Positions 116 through 7,947 of a stretch of DNA of 11,144 nucleotides are shown piece after piece. Each line of letters opens with the position of its first letter. The first letter of the stretch is position 1. The notes under the pieces were generated by a model. The model was not told the DNA's origin. It was given only the letters and a program-made list of their open reading frames with translations, and made no database searches. The stretch covers positions 1-11,144 of the forward strand of contig CAMOZD010000012.1 of the NCBI GenBank assembly GCA_946630645.1, in the 5' to 3' direction. The stretch is from an uncultured Lachnospiraceae bacterium. GTDB lineage: Bacteria; Bacillota; Clostridia; Lachnospirales; Lachnospiraceae. Position numbers and translations under genes: made by a program.

Positions 116-1897
116 ATGAAATACCTGCTTTGTGCCGTCAATGCAAAATATATACACACCAACCTGGCTGTTTACTGCCTGGAGGCCTACGCAAAAGCAC
201 ATGGGTCGGACGCCTGTTCCTGTGCGGAAATAGAGGTTTGTGAATATACCATTAACCACCATATGGACCAGCTGATCCAGGCTCTCTTCCAGGCCCGGCC
301 TGACGTCCTGGTCTTTTCCTGTTATATCTGGAATATTTCCATTATAAAAGAACTGGCTGGGGAGATGAAAAAGATCCTGCCCGGTCTGCGGATCTGGGCC
401 GGCGGCCCTGAGGTATCCTATGACGGAGCCATTTTCCTTCGGGATAATCCCCAGGTAGACCTGGTCATGCAGGGCGAGGGGGAAGTTCTTTTCACCAGTC
501 TCCTGCAGCTCTATGAAGAAGCCGGGGACCAGGCAGACCTTGGGGGCCTGCAGGGCCTCGTCTACAGAAAAGAGGGAAAGATTATTGACCAGGGTATGGC
601 CCCCTTTGTAGACCTGGACCAGGTTCCCTTTGTCTATAAAGATTTCGGTCTTTTTAAAAATAAGATCCTTTACTATGAGACCAGCAGGGGCTGCCCTTTC
701 TGCTGCAGCTACTGCCTGTCTTCAGTAGATGAGAAGGTCCGCTTCCGGTCCCTTAAGCTGGTGGAAAAAGAACTGGAGGCTTTCCTGGAGGCAGGGGTGC
801 CCCAGGTAAAGTTTGTGGACAGGACCTTTAACTGCAATAAAAACCATGCCATGGCCATCTGGACTTATATAAAGGACCATGACAGGGGACTGACTAATTT
901 TCATTTTGAGATTGGCGGAGACCTGCTGGATGAGGACAGCCTTGCCCTTTTTGAGCAGATGAGACCCGGTTTGATCCAGCTGGAGATCGGCGTCCAGTCC
1001 ACCAATCCGGAGACGCTGACAGCCATCCGGCGGCGGATGGACCTCGGGCAGATTTTTTCCCATGTGGACAGAATCCACAACATGGGAAATATCCACCAGC
1101 ACCTGGACCTGATCGCAGGTCTGCCCTATGAGGACTATGACCGGTTCGGTAAATCCTTTGATGATCTCTATGCCCACAAGCCTGACCAGCTGCAGCTGGG
1201 TTTTTTAAAGGTTCTCAAGGGGACCTATATGAAGGAGAAGGTTCAGGACTATGGTCTCCTTTACCGGGACGGTGCTCCCTATGAGGTTCTTGCCAGCCGC
1301 TGGATGTCCTATGAGGATATCCTCAGGCTGAAGGGGGTGGAGGAACTGACGGAGGACTACTATAACAGTGGTCAGTTCCATTGTACCCTGGCCTATGTCA
1401 TCCCTGCCTTTTCCGGACCCTTTGCCTTTTTTCAGGCCTTTTCTCTCTACTACAGGGGCCGGGGCTGTCACCTGCGCAGTCACAGCCGGCTGGCAAAATA
1501 TGAGATTCTGAGAGATTTTCTGGGTGAGACCGGCCTGGACCTGCCCTGGCTTGACCAGTTCCTGGTCATGGACCTTTATCTGAGAGAGAAGGCCAAGGCC
1601 AGACCGGCCTGGGCCACCGGCCAGGAGGACCACCGGGCCTTTTTTAAGAGTATGTACCGGGATCATGGGGACCTGCTCTTTCCCGGACTCACTGCAGCGG
1701 GAAACTACGATTCTAAAAAGATGGCGGGCAGGAGCCATATGGAACTTTTTGACATCGATGTTAAAGGCTTTCTGGAGACAGGAAAAATCAGACAGGGAAG
1801 CTTCTGCTGCCTGTTTGACTACCAGGACAGGGACCCCTTAAGCTATAATGCAAGGCTGGTCTGTCTTGACCTGGGGACACTGACATTTAATACTTGA
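116..1897 (+). CDS. B12-binding radical SAM protein, DUF4080 type
   Basis: This 593-residue protein is a cobalamin-binding-domain radical SAM enzyme whose substrate is unknown. Residues about 1-140 look like the Rossmann-like B12-binding fold (start MKYLLCAVNAKYIHTNLAV, later WAGGPEVSYD and QGEGE), but I do not see the DxHxxG cobalt-ligand motif of methyltransferases. The radical SAM core follows, with the Cx3Cx2C iron-sulfur triad at Cys193, Cys197 and Cys200 inside CPFCCSYC, which also contains an extra Cys196. The C-terminal ~200 residues correspond to the region called DUF4080 in similar Firmicute proteins. The reading frame is open from position 20, but the ATG at 116 is preferred: AGAGGA lies 6 nt upstream and the family N-terminus begins there. 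It is a cytosolic enzyme. The TGA stop is the first codon of a 6-bp tandem duplication. Family assignment is firm; the reaction is not known. Confidence 0.9.
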   Translation: MKYLLCAVNAKYIHTNLAVYCLEAYAKAHGSDACSCAEIEVCEYTINHHMDQLIQALFQARPDVLVFSCYIWNISIIKELAGEMKKILPGLRIWAGGPEVSYDGAIFLRDNPQVDLVMQGEGEVLFTSLLQLYEEAGDQADLGGLQGLVYRKEGKIIDQGMAPFVDLDQVPFVYKDFGLFKNKILYYETSRGCPFCCSYCLSSVDEKVRFRSLKLVEKELEAFLEAGVPQVKFVDRTFNCNKNHAMAIWTYIKDHDRGLTNFHFEIGGDLLDEDSLALFEQMRPGLIQLEIGVQSTNPETLTAIRRRMDLGQIFSHVDRIHNMGNIHQHLDLIAGLPYEDYDRFGKSFDDLYAHKPDQLQLGFLKVLKGTYMKEKVQDYGLLYRDGAPYEVLASRWMSYEDILRLKGVEELTEDYYNSGQFHCTLAYVIPAFSGPFAFFQAFSLYYRGRGCHLRSHSRLAKYEILRDFLGETGLDLPWLDQFLVMDLYLREKAKARPAWATGQEDHRAFFKSMYRDHGDLLFPGLTAAGNYDSKKMAGRSHMELFDIDVKGFLETGKIRQGSFCCLFDYQDRDPLSYNARLVCLDLGTLTFNT

Positions 1898-1922
1898 ATG
1901 TGAATGGAAAATGCCTTAAAAT
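1894..1922 (+). promoter_or_regulatory. Candidate sigma-A promoter for small peptide and vanW
   Basis: TTGAAT (1894-1899, 4 of 6 matches to the -35 consensus) and TAAAAT (1917-1922, 5 of 6 to the -10 consensus) are separated by exactly 17 nt. The site lies just after the radical SAM stop codon and upstream of the small peptide and VanW genes. The -35 element overlaps the 6-bp duplication. No extended -10 TGn is present, so strength is uncertain. Confidence 0.4.
1895..1906. repeat. 6-bp tandem duplication at radical SAM stop codon
   Basis: TGAATG occurs twice back to back (1895-1900, 1901-1906). The first copy starts with the TGA stop of the radical SAM gene, and the second puts another TGA in the same frame. 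This could be chance for so short a unit, but it matches the longer stop-codon duplications elsewhere in the window. Confidence 0.6.
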
Positions 1923-1980
1923 AGGAGAAGTATTGTATTTTTTAATAGATTATATGAATAGAAAGAAGGTTGGATGTAGC

Positions 1981-2079
1981 ATGAGGTCAAAAAAGCATCA
2001 GAAGATTGCGGCAATCGTAATTGTGGTCGTTATACTGGCCATGGTAGTAACATCAATTGTGCCTGCGATATTAATGTAA
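1981..2079 (+). CDS. Small single-pass membrane peptide (32 aa)
   Basis: This short ORF encodes MRSKKHQKIAAIVIVVVILA followed by MVVTSIVPAILM. It has a basic N-terminus (R, K, K, H, K) and then one hydrophobic helix of about 22 residues, the layout of a small inner-membrane peptide with its N-terminus inside. The frame is open from 1894, but the ATG at 1981 is chosen because AAGAAGG lies about 11 nt upstream and the basic-then-hydrophobic pattern starts there. It lies 33 nt before the VanW gene, so the two are probably co-transcribed. Short basic/hydrophobic proteins of this kind are common in Firmicutes, but I cannot tie this one to a named family and assign no function. Its last four codons, including the TAA stop, are perfectly duplicated. 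Confidence 0.6.
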   Translation: MRSKKHQKIAAIVIVVVILAMVVTSIVPAILM

Positions 2080-2094
2080 ATATTAATGTAAATA
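2068..2094. repeat. 12-bp perfect tandem duplication spanning a stop codon
   Basis: ATATTAATGTAA is present at 2068-2079 and 2080-2091, followed by a further ATA. The first copy is the final Ile-Leu-Met-stop of the small membrane peptide. Because 12 is a multiple of three, the second copy would again read Ile-Leu-Met-stop in the same frame. The second copy ends just before the VanW ribosome-binding site. Confidence 0.9.
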
Positions 2095-2112
2095 AGGAAT
2101 TTAGGAGCACTT

Positions 2113-3564
2113 ATGTATAAAAAAATTGCAATAGCCATACTGGTTCTTCTTCTGGCCGCAGTGGCTGGCCTGGCCGGTTATGTGGGCTACTATTATAATA
2201 AGTATGTGGATATAGATACCATTTATCCCGGTGTATATATCCAGGGCATGGACGTCAGCGGCATGTCCCTGCAGGAAGCCCAGAAGAAGATTGATGACTA
2301 CTCTGCTGAGGCAGGAAAGCACACGATTACCCTCCAGGTCGGAGAGAGGGAATGCAGCTTTTCCCTTGGAGAGGTAGGGCTCCACTGCACCAGTGCCGAT
2401 GCGGCCAGCAGGGCCTACAGCATGGGCAGGAGCGGCAACATTATTGACCGGATTCTTGACGTTCACCAGCTGGAGTCCTCCAAGGTTGATTTCCCTCTGA
2501 CCTATGCGGTGGATGAGAATCAGGTAAGAATGGGAGTTAGTGTACTGGCCAGACAGTTCCTGGCTACAAAGAAGGACGCGACCATCAGGAGAAAAAAGGG
2601 CAAGTTCCTTGTCACCGATGAGGTAGTGGGTATTGACATAGACTTCAACCAGAACGCAGACAAGCTGATTTCTCTATTGAAGGCAGAGAACTGGGAACCC
2701 CAGTCGATTACTTTCCCTATGGATTACAAGGAGGATAAGCCGGCCCACACCAAAGCAGAACTGGATACGATCCAGGACGTTCTTGGAACTTTTACCACTT
2801 CCTATGCCGGGTCTGCTGAGGGACGCTGTGCCAATGTGGAGAACGGAGCCTCCCTCATTAATGGGACGGTGCTTTATCCGGGGGAAGAGTTCTCAGTCTA
2901 TAAGGCGGTATCTCCTTTCAGCAAGGAGAACGGCTATCAGCTGGCCGGCTCTTATGAGAACGGATCCACGATCCAGACCTATGGCGGAGGAATCTGCCAG
3001 GTGTCCACAACCCTTTATAATGCGGTTCTCAGGGCTGAGCTGAAGATTGTGGAAAGACAGAATCATTCCATGACCGTCCACTATGTGGAACTGTCTGAGG
3101 ATGCGGCCATCGCCGGAACCCAGAAGGATTTTAAGTTTAAGAACAGTCTGGATACCCCCATCTATATTCTGGGAAAGACGGAAGATAAGCAGATTAAGTT
3201 TACCATATATGGAAAAGAGTACCGGGATAAAGACCGGTCCATAGAATTTGTTTCTAAAACCAAAAGCTCGATTGCACCCAAGGAGGAGATCATCAAGGAT
3301 GACACTCTGAAGAAGGGTAAGAAAGTGGTGGAGAAACAGGGAAAGACCGGCTACAAGGCCGAGCTTTGGAAGGTGATCCATCAGAAGGGCAAGGAGGACG
3401 AATTGGTCCAGGTCAACTCCAGCTATTATATCAGCACGCCTTCAGTGATTCGTGTGGGGACCAAGGAAGAGAAGAAAGAGACGAAAAAGAAAGATGGGAC
3501 TGATGTCAATACTCCCGGCAATGAGGGAGAGATTGTGACGGAATCCCTGGATACAAATAACTGA
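2113..3564 (+). CDS. VanW family membrane-anchored cell-envelope protein with G5 domain
   Basis: This 483-residue protein begins with a short basic stretch and a hydrophobic helix at about residues 5-27, a signal anchor that would place the rest outside the membrane. Residues about 35-210 resemble the putative peptidoglycan-binding region often found before VanW (YPGVYIQGMDVSG, then a second related segment with GKFLVTDEVVGIDID). The VanW domain spans roughly 214-357 and contains the signature YGGGICQVSTTLYNAV with Cys295. A G5-like domain follows at about 370-445, then a Lys/Glu-rich tail. ATG 2113 has AGGAG 5 nt upstream. VanW was named from vancomycin-resistance clusters, but its biochemical role is unknown and nothing here suggests a resistance locus. 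The domain set points to wall binding. The TGA stop opens a 14-bp tandem duplication. Confidence 0.9.
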   Translation: MYKKIAIAILVLLLAAVAGLAGYVGYYYNKYVDIDTIYPGVYIQGMDVSGMSLQEAQKKIDDYSAEAGKHTITLQVGERECSFSLGEVGLHCTSADAASRAYSMGRSGNIIDRILDVHQLESSKVDFPLTYAVDENQVRMGVSVLARQFLATKKDATIRRKKGKFLVTDEVVGIDIDFNQNADKLISLLKAENWEPQSITFPMDYKEDKPAHTKAELDTIQDVLGTFTTSYAGSAEGRCANVENGASLINGTVLYPGEEFSVYKAVSPFSKENGYQLAGSYENGSTIQTYGGGICQVSTTLYNAVLRAELKIVERQNHSMTVHYVELSEDAAIAGTQKDFKFKNSLDTPIYILGKTEDKQIKFTIYGKEYRDKDRSIEFVSKTKSSIAPKEEIIKDDTLKKGKKVVEKQGKTGYKAELWKVIHQKGKEDELVQVNSSYYISTPSVIRVGTKEEKKETKKKDGTDVNTPGNEGEIVTESLDTNN

Positions 3565-3589
3565 CAGAAACAAAATGACAGAAACAAAA
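3562..3589. repeat. 14-bp perfect tandem duplication starting at vanW stop
   Basis: TGACAGAAACAAAA is repeated exactly and adjacently at 3562-3575 and 3576-3589. The first three bases are the stop codon of the VanW gene. The unit length is not a multiple of three, so the second TGA falls in another frame. No stem-loop terminator is visible in 3565-3643. Confidence 0.92.
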
Positions 3590-3643
3590 GAATAGTAGAC
3601 ACAGACGACAAATAGAAAGAAATGCGGTGATCTTTGTTCTGTT

Positions 3644-4666
3644 ATGAGACTGGGTAAACTCAAAGAGAGTGTATGGCAGCGCTCTGTGGAAAAACAATTG
3701 CATAAGAATCTGAACAGATATAAGACGGCATCACTTGGTGATGCCTTAGTCTTATCACCGGAAGCCGGCTCCGGAAGGACGGCCTGGCTCACGGCGGCTG
3801 TAGCGCCTGTCCGTGGCTGGATCCTGGCTCCGGAACGTCTGGTCGCCAGAGCTCTTGCCTCGGCGGCTGCCTGCAGAATGGGAAGCGGGCCTGATCTGAG
3901 GACTTATCCTCAGCTGCATATCAGTGCCATACTGCCGCCGGAGACGGAGGAGCAGCCTTTTAAAAAGCTGGTCCGGGACCTGGACCGGCTGGCCTGGGAC
4001 CAGAACATGTTCCTCTTTGTGGACCGGGCGGAGGTCAGTCCGGCGGTTACAAGCCTCTTGCTTTATGGCTGGCTTCAGGGACCTGCGGGGCCTGCTGCCC
4101 CGGGAGCCGGAGCCCCGGAAAAGGGGAGGCCGGATTATAGCGGCTGGGATATCTGCATGGCCGGCGACCTGGCGGCGGAAGGGACAGCCCTGATCGCTGC
4201 CGAAAAGAGGCCAGAGCTGGAACAAAGATACACAAGGGACTATATTGATGCGGCCGGTACTACACTGGACCGGCAGGCCTTGAAAAGAATGCAGGATATT
4301 CTGGCCAAGCATTTTCCAGGTCCGGTTCTTGACCTGGGCCAGGGAGGCGTCTTCGGAGGCCTCTGGGAACTGGCTGTCGCGGCCAGGGTGGGACTTAGTG
4401 TTGAACTCAAAAGGATTCCGGTCCGCCAGCATACCATTGAGTTGTGTGAATACTACCGGCTGAATCCCTACAAGCTCCACTCCGGCGGAAATCTTCTGAT
4501 TCTCTGTGAGGACGGGCCAGGTCTTGTGGACCGGGCCGGTCAGGCAGGAGTGCGGGCCGCCGTCATCGGCCGGGCTGAGACCGGCAATGACAGAACGGTC
4601 AGCTATGACGATGAAGTCCGATACTTAGAACCACCTGATATGGATGAGATCTATAAAATAGTTTAA
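3644..4666 (+). CDS. Divergent AIR-synthase-like (PurM/HypE superfamily) protein
   Basis: The 340-residue product resembles the AIR-synthase-related proteins of Clostridia: start MRLGKLKESVWQRSVEKQL, a middle segment ending AEGTALIAAEKRPELEQRY, and a C-terminal half DLGQGGVFGGLWELA, IPVRQHTIELCEYY and LNPYKLHSGGNLL. In this superfamily (PurM, HypE, ThiL, SelD) an N-terminal GxGxDxA-like loop and a C-terminal HDxTxGG motif support ATP binding. Here the first is reduced to SLGDA (Asp33) and the second reads LDLGQGG (Asp230), lacking the His and Thr, and the middle carries a Pro/Gly/Ala-rich stretch (about 146-160). The enzyme may therefore be altered or inactive. ATG 3644 matches the family N-terminus; the GGTGATC upstream pairs well with the 16S tail but is distant. 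The gene ends in a 9-bp stop duplication. The superfamily is likely; the substrate is unknown. Confidence 0.75.
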   Translation: MRLGKLKESVWQRSVEKQLHKNLNRYKTASLGDALVLSPEAGSGRTAWLTAAVAPVRGWILAPERLVARALASAAACRMGSGPDLRTYPQLHISAILPPETEEQPFKKLVRDLDRLAWDQNMFLFVDRAEVSPAVTSLLLYGWLQGPAGPAAPGAGAPEKGRPDYSGWDICMAGDLAAEGTALIAAEKRPELEQRYTRDYIDAAGTTLDRQALKRMQDILAKHFPGPVLDLGQGGVFGGLWELAVAARVGLSVELKRIPVRQHTIELCEYYRLNPYKLHSGGNLLILCEDGPGLVDRAGQAGVRAAVIGRAETGNDRTVSYDDEVRYLEPPDMDEIYKIV

Positions 4667-4675
4667 ATAGTTTAA
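4658..4675. repeat. 9-bp perfect tandem duplication spanning a stop codon
   Basis: ATAGTTTAA occurs at 4658-4666 and 4667-4675. The first copy is the last two codons and TAA stop of the AIR-synthase-like gene. The 9-bp unit keeps the frame, so the second copy repeats Ile-Val-stop. Confidence 0.85.
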
Positions 4676-4695
4676 TCAGATTAATGGAGGCAGAG

Positions 4696-5178
4696 ATGCG
4701 CAAAGAAATATTAAAGATGCTGGAGAATAACAGCAGGATTGATTTACATGACCTGGCAATAATGATGGGAACAGACGAGACCAGGGTTTACCAGGAGATT
4801 GAAAAGATGGAGAAGGAAGGGATTATCTGTGGATATCCTACTCTGATCAACTGGGATAAGACCGGTGAGGAGAAGGTGACGGCCCTCATCGAGGTCCGGG
4901 TTACCCCCCAGAGGGGCCAGGGCTTTGAAAAACTGGCAGAAAGAATCACCAACTACCCGGAGGTCAGATCAGTCTACCTTATGTCAGGAGCCTTTGATTT
5001 TGCCGTATTCCTGGAAGGAAAGACCCTGAAAGAGGTTTCTATGTTTGTGACAAGCAAGCTGTCTACCCTCGATGCCATTACCAGTACATCCACTCATTTC
5101 GTACTGAAGAAATATAAAGATTACGGCATTATTATGCTGGATAAGCCTAAGAGCAGCAGAATGAAGGTGACACTATGA
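4696..5178 (+). CDS. Lrp/AsnC family transcriptional regulator
   Basis: This 160-residue DNA-binding regulator has an N-terminal winged helix-turn-helix (about residues 8-50, IDLHDLAIMMGTDETRVYQE) and a C-terminal RAM/ligand-binding domain (about 63-140, including VTALIEVRV, YLMSGAFDFAVF and THFVLKKYK), the standard Lrp/AsnC order and length. Such proteins form dimers or octamers and often sense amino acids. An in-frame ATG exists at 4684, but GGAGG at 4686-4690 overlaps that codon and sits 5 nt before the ATG at 4696, so 4696 is chosen. The TGA stop overlaps the ATG of the aminotransferase gene (ATGA, 4 nt shared), which implies translational coupling and suggests the regulator controls, or responds to the product of, that enzyme. 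Autoregulation is typical of the family, but no operator could be defined here. Confidence 0.92.
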   Translation: MRKEILKMLENNSRIDLHDLAIMMGTDETRVYQEIEKMEKEGIICGYPTLINWDKTGEEKVTALIEVRVTPQRGQGFEKLAERITNYPEVRSVYLMSGAFDFAVFLEGKTLKEVSMFVTSKLSTLDAITSTSTHFVLKKYKDYGIIMLDKPKSSRMKVTL

Positions 5179-6347
5179 GGAATCCCTTATCTGATACGGT
5201 GGTTCAACTGAAACCATCGGGCATACGTAAATTTTTTGATGTGGTCCAGGAGATGCCGGATGCCATTTCTCTGGGTGTGGGCGAACCGGATTTCGATACG
5301 CCCTGGCATATCCGGGAGGAAGGTATCTATTCCTTAGAGCGGGGAAGGACCTTCTATACATCTAATGCCGGTCTCATGGAACTGAGACAGGCCATAGCCC
5401 GGTATACTTACAGGAAATGCAACATTTCCTATGATCCTAAAAAGGAGATCCTGGTTACGGTGGGCGGCAGTGAGGGAATTGATGTGGCCCTGCGGGCCAT
5501 GCTTAATCCCGGCGATGAAGTGATTATTCCGGAGCCCTCCTATGTATCCTATGTGCCCTGTGTGGCCCTGACCGGAGGTGTGCCGGTGACCATTCCCCTT
5601 CAGGAGAAAAACCGGTTTAAGCTGACTGAGGAGGAACTGCTGGGAGCCATCACAGACAAGACCAAGATTCTTGTGCTTACCTTCCCCAACAATCCCACAG
5701 GGGCCATTATGACCAAAGAAGACCTGGAGCCTATTGCCAGGATTGTACGGGAGAAGGACCTCTATGTGATTTCCGATGAAATCTACGCCGAGCTGACCTA
5801 TGGTGTGGACCACTGCTCCATCGCCACTTTCCCGGGCCTGCGGGAGAGGACTATTGTAATCAATGGTTTCAGTAAAGCTTTCGCCATGACCGGCTGGAGA
5901 CTGGGCTATGCCATGGGTCCGGAAGTGATCCTTAAGCAGATGACCAAGATTCACCAGTATTGTATTATGGCTGCGCCCACCACCAGCCAGTATGCCGCCG
6001 TGGAGGCCATGAATAACGGAGAGGAAGATGTGCAGGAGATGAGAAATGCCTACAATCACCGCCGCCGTTATCTGGTGGAGCGCTTTAAGCAGATCGGACT
6101 TAAATGTTTTGAGCCGGAAGGAGCATTCTATATCTTTCCCAGTATCCAGGAATTCGGCATGACTTCCGAAGAGTTTGCTACCCGTTTTCTCAGAGAGGAG
6201 AAGGTAGCGGTCGTACCGGGAACAGCTTTCGGGGAATGTGGTGAGGGCTTTTTACGTGTGTCCTATGCCTACTCCTTAGATGAGCTTAAGATTGCCCTTG
6301 GACGGCTGGAGCGGTTTATCGACAGGCTCAGGTCCGAAAAGTTTTAA
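5175..6347 (+). CDS. Class I/II PLP-dependent aminotransferase
   Basis: The 390-residue protein is a fold-type I aminotransferase that transfers amino groups between an amino acid and a 2-oxo acid. Visible active-site signatures are NNPTG (Asn173), SDEIYAEL (Asp201 for the pyridine nitrogen, Tyr204), the PLP-binding lysine in GFSKAFAMTGWRLGY (Lys234), and RVSYAYS (Arg361, substrate carboxylate). The length and the start SGIRKFFDVVQEMPDAISLGVGEPDFDTP fit the family often annotated as aspartate, alanine or aromatic (PatA-like) aminotransferase, but substrate preference cannot be read from sequence. ATG 5175 overlaps the TGA of the Lrp/AsnC gene by ATGA. The neighbouring regulator suggests amino-acid-responsive expression. 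The stop lies 10 nt before the trmL start, so these genes are probably one transcript. Confidence 0.93.
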   Translation: MRNPLSDTVVQLKPSGIRKFFDVVQEMPDAISLGVGEPDFDTPWHIREEGIYSLERGRTFYTSNAGLMELRQAIARYTYRKCNISYDPKKEILVTVGGSEGIDVALRAMLNPGDEVIIPEPSYVSYVPCVALTGGVPVTIPLQEKNRFKLTEEELLGAITDKTKILVLTFPNNPTGAIMTKEDLEPIARIVREKDLYVISDEIYAELTYGVDHCSIATFPGLRERTIVINGFSKAFAMTGWRLGYAMGPEVILKQMTKIHQYCIMAAPTTSQYAAVEAMNNGEEDVQEMRNAYNHRRRYLVERFKQIGLKCFEPEGAFYIFPSIQEFGMTSEEFATRFLREEKVAVVPGTAFGECGEGFLRVSYAYSLDELKIALGRLERFIDRLRSEKF

Positions 6348-6357
6348 GGGATGCGGC

Positions 6358-6849
6358 ATGGTTAATATTGTATTACATGAGCCGGAGATTCCGGCCAATA
6401 CCGGTAATATAGGCCGTACTTGTGTGGCGACCCACAGTGTCCTCCACCTGATTGAGCCCCTGGGCTTCCGGATTAATGACAAAATGTTAAAAAGGGCCGG
6501 CCTGGATTACTGGGATAAGCTGGATGTGAGAGTCTATGAGGACTTCGAAGATTTCCTCAGTAAGAACCCCGGGGCCAGGATTTATATGGCCACCACCAAG
6601 TCCCGGCAGACCTATGCCGATGTGACTTATGAGGATGGCTGCTATATTATGTTTGGCAAGGAAAGTGCCGGCATCCCGGAGGAGATTCTCCTTGATTACA
6701 AGGACACGGCAGTGAGGATTCCCATGTTTGGGGATATCCGGTCCCTGAACCTGTCCAATTCGGTCTCCGTTATCCTTTATGAAGCCTTGAGACAGCAGGG
6801 CTTTAAGGAACTGGAACTGGAGGGGCAGCTTCATCACTACCAGTGGTAA
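6358..6849 (+). CDS. trmL: tRNA (cytidine(34)-2'-O)-methyltransferase, SPOUT family
   Basis: This 163-residue SPOUT methyltransferase is expected to 2'-O-methylate the wobble nucleotide of certain leucine tRNAs using S-adenosylmethionine. It has the family's N-terminal block NIVLHEPEIPANTGNIGRTC (residues 3-22), the FGKESAGIP loop (99-107) and the knot segment IPMFGDIRSLNLSNSVSV (121-138) followed by ILYEALRQ. The size matches minimal TrmL (YibK/CspR), with no extra RNA-binding domain. The frame is open from 6280, inside the aminotransferase gene, but ATG 6358 is preferred because AAGGGA lies 6 nt upstream and the family sequence begins there. Gap to the previous stop is 10 nt. The TAA is followed by a TAAG repeat. 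Position 34 specificity is inferred from family membership. Confidence 0.93.
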   Translation: MVNIVLHEPEIPANTGNIGRTCVATHSVLHLIEPLGFRINDKMLKRAGLDYWDKLDVRVYEDFEDFLSKNPGARIYMATTKSRQTYADVTYEDGCYIMFGKESAGIPEEILLDYKDTAVRIPMFGDIRSLNLSNSVSVILYEALRQQGFKELELEGQLHHYQW

Positions 6850-6854
6850 GTAAG
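6847..6854. repeat. 4-bp tandem TAAG at trmL stop
   Basis: TAAG TAAG begins with the TAA stop of trmL; the second TAA is shifted by one frame. It is short enough to be chance and is listed only because longer stop-codon duplications occur at other genes here. Confidence 0.35.
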
Positions 6855-6873
6855 CTCCATAGTTTACTGGCAT

Positions 6874-6995
6874 GGCAGGGGAAAGTAAGCCCATGAATGA
6901 CCACTATGGCAGTGATAATCAAGCTTATGGTATGGTACAGTCGCTAAGGCAGGGGATGATAAGCCCTATGGCACGGCCGTTATGGCAAAGATGAT
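6874..6995. repeat. Degenerate ~75-bp direct repeat rich in TATGG
   Basis: GGCAGGGGA...TAAGCCC...ATG appears at 6874-6895 and again, with small differences, at 6948-6970. Downstream, TATGGCAGTGATAAT (6905) resembles TATGGCAAAGATGAT (6981). The spacing is 74-76 nt in both pairs. TATGG occurs six times between 6905 and 7006 (6905, 6926, 6931, 6967, 6981, 7002). Indels make the two copies unequal, so this appears to be an old duplication. Confidence 0.5.
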
Positions 6996-7089
6996 GTGTT
7001 TTATGGCCTGGCTGTTTGACCGGACTGGTAAGAAAAGACTTGCGGGGCAGACCAGAGAGAAGAAGAAAATGAAGGCCGGTCCTGGATGA
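6893..7089 (+). pseudogene. Possible small ORF broken by a 5-bp duplication
   Basis: ATG 6893, preceded by AGGGGAAAG with about 7 nt spacing, opens a frame reading MNDHYGSDNQAYG and then runs to TGA at 6992-6994. At 6926-6935 TATGG is present twice in tandem. Removing one copy joins this frame to the downstream open frame, giving AYGTVAKAGDDKPYGTAV, MAKMMCFMAWLFDRTGKKR and a Lys-rich end before TGA at 7087-7089, about 62 residues in total. As it stands the gene would be truncated to 33 residues, unless the downstream part is read from ATG 6982, which lacks a ribosome site. No family is recognised. It could instead be non-coding repeat DNA whose frames happen to be open. Confidence 0.35.
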
Positions 7090-7107
7090 TGACAGGAGCG
7101 GACATAA

Positions 7108-7137
7108 ATGAATTTAGAAAGTGTATTTTATGAATAG
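7108..7137 (+). other. Possible 9-codon upstream ORF overlapping thioesterase start
   Basis: ATG 7108 has AGGAG at 7094-7098, a better ribosome site than that of the next gene, and reads MNLESVFYE before TAG at 7135-7137. The stop overlaps the proposed thioesterase ATG at 7130. It could be a leader ORF used for translational coupling, a remnant of a longer N-terminus, or chance. Confidence 0.25.
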
Positions 7138-7732
7138 TGATATGATGAGTAAGAAGAGGGAACCCGTAGACAAGCGCCTGGAGACCAAGCCTGAGGGCAG
7201 CGGCCAGACCTGGGCTTCTGACTATGACCCGGAATTCGGACCGGATATTAAGTTCCGGCAGGGAGATGACCGCCATTATCTTCTGCCTGAAGAAGGAGAC
7301 CGTAAGATCAGTCTGGAAGATATTGAGAGGATTCTCCACTTCCGTCTCAGTGTGGACGGGGCCATTGGCCAGCTGGGGATCAAGGTGACAGACCTGGAAG
7401 TGGGCTGGGCCAGGGCAGAGATGGAATATAACTCTTCCCACAGGAACCCCAACGGGTCAGTCCATGGGGGAATGATCTTCTCTCTTGCCGATTCGGTGGC
7501 AGGAACGGCAGCCTGTACCCACGGCAGCATGGTAACCACTTCCACAGGCAGTATCTATTTTCTTCATGCGGCCTTCCGGCCCAAAAAGCTGATCGCCGAG
7601 GCCATGGAGCTGAAGGCGGGCCGTAATTTGATGACCTATGACGTTAAAGTTAAGACCGACACCGGCAAGCTGGTAGCCAAGGCAACCATGGAATATTTTA
7701 ATCTGAATATGCCGATTCCGAGAGTGAGATAG
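7130..7732 (+). CDS. PaaI/hotdog-fold acyl-CoA thioesterase with N-terminal extension
   Basis: The C-terminal ~140 residues (about 62-195) form a hotdog-fold thioesterase of the PaaI/YdiI type, expected to hydrolyse acyl- or aryl-CoA thioesters in the cytosol. The active-site block is HRNPNGSVHGGMIFSLADS with HGG at 112-114 and the likely catalytic Asp121, followed by the strand segment STGSIYFLHAA. The 200-residue product is longer than the usual 130-150 because of about 60 charged, low-complexity N-terminal residues (DYDPEFGPDIKFRQGDDRHY) of unknown role. The start is uncertain: ATG 7130 has AGAAAG about 8 nt upstream; GTG 7121 and ATGs at 7142 and 7145 are in the same frame. It is the last rightward gene before the 7850-7892 hairpin. 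The physiological substrate is unknown. Confidence 0.85.
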   Translation: MNSDMMSKKREPVDKRLETKPEGSGQTWASDYDPEFGPDIKFRQGDDRHYLLPEEGDRKISLEDIERILHFRLSVDGAIGQLGIKVTDLEVGWARAEMEYNSSHRNPNGSVHGGMIFSLADSVAGTAACTHGSMVTTSTGSIYFLHAAFRPKKLIAEAMELKAGRNLMTYDVKVKTDTGKLVAKATMEYFNLNMPIPRVR

Positions 7733-7793
7733 TGGTCAGACTCATAAAGACAGGACCTGATACGAGCTGAGACCTATTGGCGTCAATGAGAAT

Positions 7794-7824
7794 ATAAGGC
7801 AGCATATAGATAAGCAGCATATAA
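7794..7824. repeat. Imperfect ~15-bp tandem duplication
   Basis: ATAAGGCAGCATATAG (7794-7809) is followed at once by ATAAGCAGCATATAA (7810-7824). The copies share GCAGCATATA and differ by a one-base indel and the final base. It lies between the thioesterase stop and the hairpin. The rest of 7733-7849 shows nothing coding. Confidence 0.65.
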
Positions 7825-7849
7825 ATAATAACACTGAAAGAATAATAAT

Positions 7850-7901
7850 CCGGGCCCCGGGATGGCCTTGTCTGAGCCATCCCGGGGCCCGGTTGTTTTT
7901 T
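7850..7901. terminator. Bidirectional intrinsic terminator between convergent genes
   Basis: The arms CCGGGCCCCGGGATGGC (7850-7866) and its exact complement (7876-7892) form a perfect 17-bp stem with a 9-nt loop. On the plus strand it is followed by TTGTTTTTTA, a good U-tract, so it should end the rightward transcript through the thioesterase gene. On the minus strand it is followed by ATTATTATT, a weaker U-rich tail, about 36 nt after the mutS2 stop, so it probably also terminates the leftward transcript. Confidence 0.93.
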
Positions 7902-7909
7902 ACCTAAGC

Positions 7910-7947
7910 TTAGCGGAAGATGACGACATTAGCGGAAGGTGACGACA
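7910..7947. repeat. 19-bp tandem duplication spanning mutS2 stop
   Basis: TTAGCGGAAGATGACGACA (7910-7928) and TTAGCGGAAGGTGACGACA (7929-7947) are directly adjacent with one mismatch (A/G at unit position 10). The inner copy encodes the last codons of mutS2 (Val-Val-Thr-Phe-Arg-stop read leftward). The outer copy lies beyond the stop and, being 19 bp, places its TAA one frame away. Confidence 0.93.

Follow-up and report, generated by a model that had tools for sequence, protein, structure and literature searches.

Tandem arrays at and behind gene ends in an uncultured Lachnospiraceae bacterium

Mycobacterial interspersed repetitive unit (MIRU) elements are tandem repeats of intergenic DNA that overlap, at their ends, the stop and start codons of the flanking genes, and they make up one dispersed family. 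Bacterial minisatellites and satellites are built of locus-specific, head-to-tail units of tens of base pairs (bp) with a slippage-type origin; in a survey of 142 archaea and 119 bacteria, restricted to satellites of at least four regular copies, most species are satellite-poor, 18 bacteria exceed 4 per Mb and many satellites lie within genes (Subirana and Messeguer 2019; PMC6749651). Short insertions and minisatellites also distinguish related genomes of E. coli and other species, and one report assigns 2-4% of E. coli variable loci to minisatellites (PMC2884548). The present work concerns tandem arrays at and behind gene ends in an uncultured Lachnospiraceae bacterium (GCA_946630645.1), and begins from one contig of 11,144 nucleotides (nt; CAMOZD010000012.1), hereafter the window, in which a first-pass annotation had noted that five genes end in adjacent duplications containing the stop codon. 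These arrays share with the minisatellites and satellites just described their unit size, arrangement, locus specificity and apparent slippage-type origin, and with the small variable segments of E. coli the property of telling related genomes apart; they differ from the satellites of that survey in being largely non-coding, short and worn, in lying on the 3' side, and in often carrying the last codons and stop of a gene. Unlike MIRU elements, their units, of 8-60 bp, are unrelated between loci. In a limited search of the open-access literature, no description was found of tandem repeats at bacterial stop codons, nor of such a high density and 3'-end placement in one clade, minisatellites themselves being known. 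The mechanism is an ordinary one and the density unusual.

Placement was examined in 713 kb of the source genome (81 contigs, or 44% of an assembly of 1.63 Mb in 325 contigs that is 75.6% complete and includes the window as contig C12), in which 573 genes were called with our own simple codon-usage script. Arrays in this sample are dense in the non-coding 3' flanks of genes, reach up to a few tens of bases into coding ends and are scarce at starts; inside genes they are much sparser per base, and the strict ones there are nearly all in frame. Strict arrays, defined as near exact with a period of 7-60, numbered 118, with 45 in coding sequence, 57 intergenic, 11 over stops, one over a start and four at edges. 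Their periods were divisible by three in 42/45 coding, 28/57 intergenic and 3/11 stop-covering cases. Had arrays been placed at random among positions touching non-coding DNA, 10.3 would be expected over stops (11.1 with looser gene calls) and 9.4 over starts (9.3 with looser calls), so that the single array over a start is a marked deficit (binomial P 0.0006).

A gapped detector, which reports the best self-alignment score through a given base and was read at thresholds of 12 and 16, brought out many more, worn arrays. It was applied to the 564 genes with at least 150 nt behind the stop, and for offset profiles to the 553 with 250 nt; the gene caller misses short genes such as that at 1981-2079, and the 12-bp window array over its stop is consequently absent from the counts. 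A score of at least 12 was reached at 59/564 stops, 3/564 shuffled ends, 15/560 coding positions and 9/502 starts (stops against starts, P 2e-9). Behind the gene, the level was 68/427 at +40 and 62/376 at +80, against 52/427 for stops followed by a gap of at least 70 nt (stops against +40, P 0.14). The array level is 0.036 at -60, reaches 0.105 at the stop itself and stands at 0.11-0.13 between +10 and +50; coverage is highest at about +40 to +160. By type of gene gap, arrays cover a fraction of 0.176 of positions in convergent, 0.132 in co-directional and 0.067 in divergent gaps. Stops in this genome thus sit on the shoulder of a 3'-flank plateau, without a peak, and are not targeted. In the scan of stop codons across the sample, stops lie far above shuffled sequence and starts, and not above the 3' flank. 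The idea that stops are the special site finds no support in this genome: the frequency there is that of other non-coding positions (11 against 10.3-11.1 strict arrays; 52/427 against 68/427 at +40), which is the outcome that the first-pass annotation had named as refuting it.

The arrays are likely young and decaying minisatellites, produced by slippage-type tandem duplication of 8-60 bp and filtered by selection. Under this reading, a duplication starting within the final codons would be harmless, since the protein end and the stop are still provided by the first copy, and one that covers a start, or falls out of frame within a gene, would be removed by selection. Such a filter could leave array edges at stops without any process aimed at stops, although the step from pattern to mechanism is drawn from standing sequence. 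The first-pass annotation suggested slippage or repair in this lineage, tolerated as long as the protein is left intact by the first copy; this is supported by the dense 3'-flank arrays of this genome and of its relative UBA7026, by the smaller number and lesser strength of arrays in sampled congeners, and by the avoidance of starts in the source genome. Two marks of a minisatellite were found, namely at least two head-to-tail copies beyond chance, and a copy number or make-up that differs between related genomes.

The array-rich trait is common to the source genome and Lachnospiraceae bacterium UBA7026, the sole relative obtained from a VanW-protein scan of named genomes; in the congeners sampled, arrays are less numerous and for the most part weaker. 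From the 18 congeners listed, seven (G002, G003, G004, G007, G008, G009 and G010; 400 kb in total) were pooled and another, G005, was counted apart. At a score of at least 16, the source genome has 36/564 stops and the seven congeners 2/304 (P 1.7e-5), with G005 at 6/239 (shuffled, 3/239). At the lower threshold of 12, G005 has 20/239 stops (shuffled, 5/239), and UBA7026 has 9/60 in four stretches, of which two are on the window's contig and one on a contig matching L069. A wider UBA7026 count of 14/77 stops and 2/70 starts includes loci fetched for the window or for their arrays. None of 94 gene ends tested in E. coli K-12 reaches the threshold. Tandem Repeats Finder (TRF) arrays that are non-coding or lie over a stop or start number 161 per Mb in the source genome, 58 in the seven congeners and 105 in G005. 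With coding arrays included and at least 3.5 copies required, the densities per Mb are 42 (30 in 0.713 Mb), 5 and 15, respectively, and 27 in UBA7026 (two arrays in 75 kb), figures that are not directly comparable with those of the satellite survey owing to its different criteria (PMC6749651).

The repeats of the window, together with the small gene that one of them ends, are as follows.

1895-1906, plus strand: apparent 6-bp repeat, TGAATG twice (TGAATGTGAATG), composed of the radical-SAM gene end, a -35 box and the start of a 17-bp spacer
1981-2079, plus strand: gene for a 32-residue, small membrane-like protein, lying between the radical-SAM and VanW genes also in at least six congeners, with 31-34 residues
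2068-2091 (matching run of 15, to 2094), plus strand: 12-bp tandem duplication, ATATTAATGTAA twice, over the small-gene stop, in frame
3463-3491, within the VanW gene: worn 9-bp array, from TRF
3562-3589, plus strand: 14-bp tandem duplication, TGACAGAAACAAAA twice, beginning at the VanW/G5 gene stop, out of frame
4658-4675 (matching run of 11; feature 4656..4675), plus strand: 9-bp tandem duplication, ATAGTTTAA twice, over the stop of gene 3644-4666, in frame
6807-6821, within trmL: 6-bp array, from TRF
6841..6987, plus strand: decayed array of a unit of about 35 bp in about four copies (starts at 6841, 6876, 6910 and 6946), the first holding the trmL stop
7799-7828, no strand assigned: 15-bp tandem pair with one mismatch in the thioesterase-mutS2 spacer, touching no stop
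7910-7947, minus strand: 19-bp tandem duplication with one mismatch, over the mutS2 stop

The coordinates and letters of all five repeats first reported are correct, and the 12-, 14-, 9- and 19-bp pairs are true tandem duplications; the 6-bp pair is not. TRF returned seven rows on the window, including three arrays off stop codons. All three exact tandem repeats with a period of at least 9 contain a stop codon, as does the near-exact 19-bp one. That the repeats exceed chance is borne out by scores of at least 12 at 5/10 window gene ends, counting the short gene at 1981-2079 that was added by hand, against 3/564 shuffled ends. Junctions of 10 nt or less between genes do lack repeats, their scores of 5.0 and 4.0 being at background. 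The array density of the window is high relative to its genome but not alien to it.

The 6-bp case was rejected as a duplication, since seven of the eight congeners read, and also UBA7026 with TGAATGTGGATG, carry an equally long stretch there whose second "copy" is spelled differently. The gapped detector likewise found no 6-bp array at 1895-1906, its best offset there being 55 with a score of 10.8. Read by eye, the pattern TTGAAT-17 nt-TAAAAT/TAGAAT/TACAAT is present in G001, G002, G003, G005, G007, G009 and G010 and is not evident in G004; we take it to be promoter-like from its agreement with the promoter consensus. The apparent repeat is, on this comparison of sequences, two words agreeing by chance within a putative promoter element that is conserved in the genus. 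This element precedes the small gene at 1981-2079 and overlaps or lies just past the upstream stop codon. The encoded 32-residue protein had no Pfam match.

For the remaining pairs of the window, the second copy is lacking in the congeners examined and present in UBA7026. Both copies of the 12-bp pair are present in UBA7026, with 2 extra nt between them, and by eye the second copy was not seen in G001, G005, G007, G008, G009 or G010. The 14-bp pair is identical in UBA7026, where it marks the left-hand limit of a block of near identity, and the VanW gene end of nine congeners did not show it; in one of these, G009, an unrelated 7-bp A-rich repeat lies across the stop. The 9-bp pair is also identical in UBA7026, and the corresponding gene end has no array in nine congeners. 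The 19-bp duplication is absent from the mutS2 end of 16 congeners, 14 of which have flank enough to be scored and 13 of which fall below 12; the mutS2 end of G004 scores 12.4 at an offset of 9, with a different sequence. The protein ending common to the congeners is specified by the coding copy (7929-7947), and the downstream copy has drifted and carries the mismatch, with one further change in the downstream copy of UBA7026. The copy behind the stop is accordingly the free one. At trmL, the 4-bp case of the first-pass annotation is present but understated, as it belongs to the first copy of the decayed array with a unit of about 35 bp, which the gapped detector scores at 14.4 with an offset of 35. 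Behind trmL in UBA7026 (L092) there is a scaffold gap of N with the same 12-mer on both flanks, which is probably an unassembled longer tandem array.

Outside the window, the units of several arrays hold, by eye, the last codons and stop of the gene.

L105: 32-bp unit in about five copies
L069: 29-bp unit
L016: 40-bp unit
L108: 48-bp unit
L057: 30/60-bp unit

Offsets of the stop-covering units span 8-60 bp, and several arrays have at least three copies. No homology between units of different loci was detected at E 1e-4 among the 59 array ends, save one convergent spacer counted from both of its genes, and no array unit matched another contig of the 81-contig sample.

Turnover can be read from 28 gene ends, nine of them from the window, compared with UBA7026. 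Four outside the window score at least 12 in either genome. At L069, a pair fetched for its array, there are 3.6 copies against one in UBA7026. Behind the gene at 6589 of L064, the repeat is longer by about 80 nt in UBA7026, between flanks that are about 90% identical. The weaker arrays at 7428 of L064 and 864 of L101 are kept without insertions or deletions of 5 nt or more. The L016 array, a locus also fetched for its array, differs from that of UBA7026 in number and in letters, and the L010 array has no match in UBA7026. By eye, the same gene end in L016 (5643-5765) and L216 (1390-1640) has copies that are more alike within than between genomes, the coding copy included; this would represent apparent concerted evolution reaching into the C-terminus. 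In the window, by comparison, the 9-, 12-, 14- and 19-bp pairs have the same copy number in UBA7026. The idea that these duplications are strain-specific is contradicted by the aligned junctions, as UBA7026 is a separate assembly and carries the window repeats, which is weak evidence of age. The 9-, 14- and 19-bp pairs say little in this respect because they lie in stretches at least 98% identical that were possibly exchanged recently; the 12-bp pair, in a part that is about 87-91% identical, is probably older.

No sign of a function for the arrays was found, and both of the functional proposals in the first-pass annotation lose ground. Selection of an in-frame second copy as a backup stop that catches readthrough ribosomes would suit the 12- and 9-bp window units, which place a second stop in frame, but the 14- and 19-bp units are out of frame, periods are multiples of three at chance level (20/58 stop-covering units, P 0.48; or 18/50, P 0.40), and arrays occur just as often at +40 and +80, positions at which no stop is added to the gene; this explanation is highly improbable. 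Selection acting on RNA structure or transcript stability at the 3' end, with the arrays providing its raw material, is improbable as well. The arrays do lie in presumptive 3' untranslated regions and are richest in convergent gaps, but folding z-scores do not separate 50 array ends (mean -0.75) from 332 others (mean -0.79; P 0.81), and the units are unrelated between loci. Target-site duplications left by excised or inserted mobile elements, or a dispersed repeat family, have a practically negligible chance of being correct. Paired copies resemble a target-site duplication, and 2 nt separate the 12-bp copies in UBA7026, but unit lengths of 8-60, at least three copies in several arrays and the failure of any unit to recur among the 59 ends and 81 contigs count against both. 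The target-site duplication and the MIRU-like dispersed family were both rejected on these grounds of variable length, multiple copies and the lack of a shared unit. Assembly error in a metagenome bin is hardly credible, despite the fragmentary state of the assembly (325 contigs; 75.6% complete), given that the separately assembled UBA7026 has the window repeats with sequence differences, and that copies within the listed arrays have mostly diverged, a pattern that misassembly does not produce; as a source of the window repeats, the presence of these in UBA7026 disposes of it.

A different kind of alternative is that mutation is itself aimed at gene ends, for instance through replication-transcription conflicts or template switching at termination sites. 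The asymmetry of the source genome between 3' and 5' sides (stops 59/564, starts 9/502; convergent gaps 0.176, divergent 0.067), which is absent in sampled congeners, and the several units built from last codons and stop would both follow from this. Selection against damage to promoters and starts would leave the same asymmetry, however, and sequence alone does not tell the two apart; moreover, coverage is broad, being highest at about +40 to +160 from the stop, and is not centred on a single feature. We regard such targeting as unlikely. The more specific proposal, by which a process of this clade acting at transcribed gene ends would duplicate the final codons and stop of each gene into the spacer that follows, such that about one gene in ten trails decaying copies, is similarly doubtful. 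Loss of mismatch repair was set aside as a cause. Mismatch repair acts on smaller slips than those of 8-60 bp, and UBA7026 has an open reading frame of 927 residues whose MutS-like match, at 27%, covers residues 256-509 of MutS2, and which is presumably a MutS. Candidate causes for the frequent duplication or retention in this clade include differences in polymerase, single-strand exonuclease or fork restart, and weak selection against extra DNA.

Several observations weigh against duplication followed by a selective filter as the full account. The bias of 3' over 5' sides is clear in the source genome only. Stops and starts differ little in the seven congeners (17/304 and 10/291), arrays there are no sparser in divergent gaps (0.069) than in co-directional ones (0.038), and stops exceed shuffled ends (4/304) without lying below +40 (8/186). 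G005 has 20/239 stops and 14/226 starts with a divergent fraction of 0.118 from five gaps, and its strict arrays over stops number 4-5 against 1.7 expected, which, given the small counts, may indicate a mild stop preference. A universal filter should appear in congeners too, although their arrays are few and background may mask it. At a score of at least 12, the source genome outnumbers the seven congeners at stops by only a factor of two (59/564 against 17/304; P 0.016). The window is denser than its own genome (5/10 against a background of about 54/554; binomial P 0.0015), having been flagged for looking so. Moreover, with simple gene calls some "non-coding" arrays may sit in missed genes (28/57 intergenic periods are divisible by three), and the arrays are read as standing sequence.

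The genes of the window run from a B12-binding/radical-SAM DUF4080 protein through the 32-residue small protein, a VanW/G5 protein and a protein with a weak AIRS_C match to an Lrp/AsnC-type regulator, an aminotransferase, trmL (SpoU family; gene name taken from the first-pass annotation) and a thioesterase, with mutS2 and acylphosphatase on the minus strand. The gene at 3644-4666 (plus strand), that with the weak AIRS_C match, encodes a fast-evolving protein of 340 residues with 40-43% identity to full-length matches from the same genus. Identity between the source genome and UBA7026 is a mosaic of 84-100% across the compared loci. A block that is about 99.6% identical spans 3540-6950 of the window (L092 in UBA7026) beside sequence of about 85-90% identity, with a boundary near the 14-bp repeat that suggests recent recombination.

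With about a tenth of stops inside worn arrays, and sampled congeners nearly without strong ones, this lineage offers a contrast from which the control of 10-60 bp tandem duplication may be approached. For such species, genomes binned from short reads may be broken or collapsed where genes end, of which the UBA7026 gap behind trmL is possibly one case. If gene ends were indeed copied by a dedicated process, this would be a continuing source of spacer DNA and, through stop loss, of C-terminal extensions. The clade is also useful for measuring how the 5'/3' asymmetry of tolerated mutations shapes bacterial spacers.

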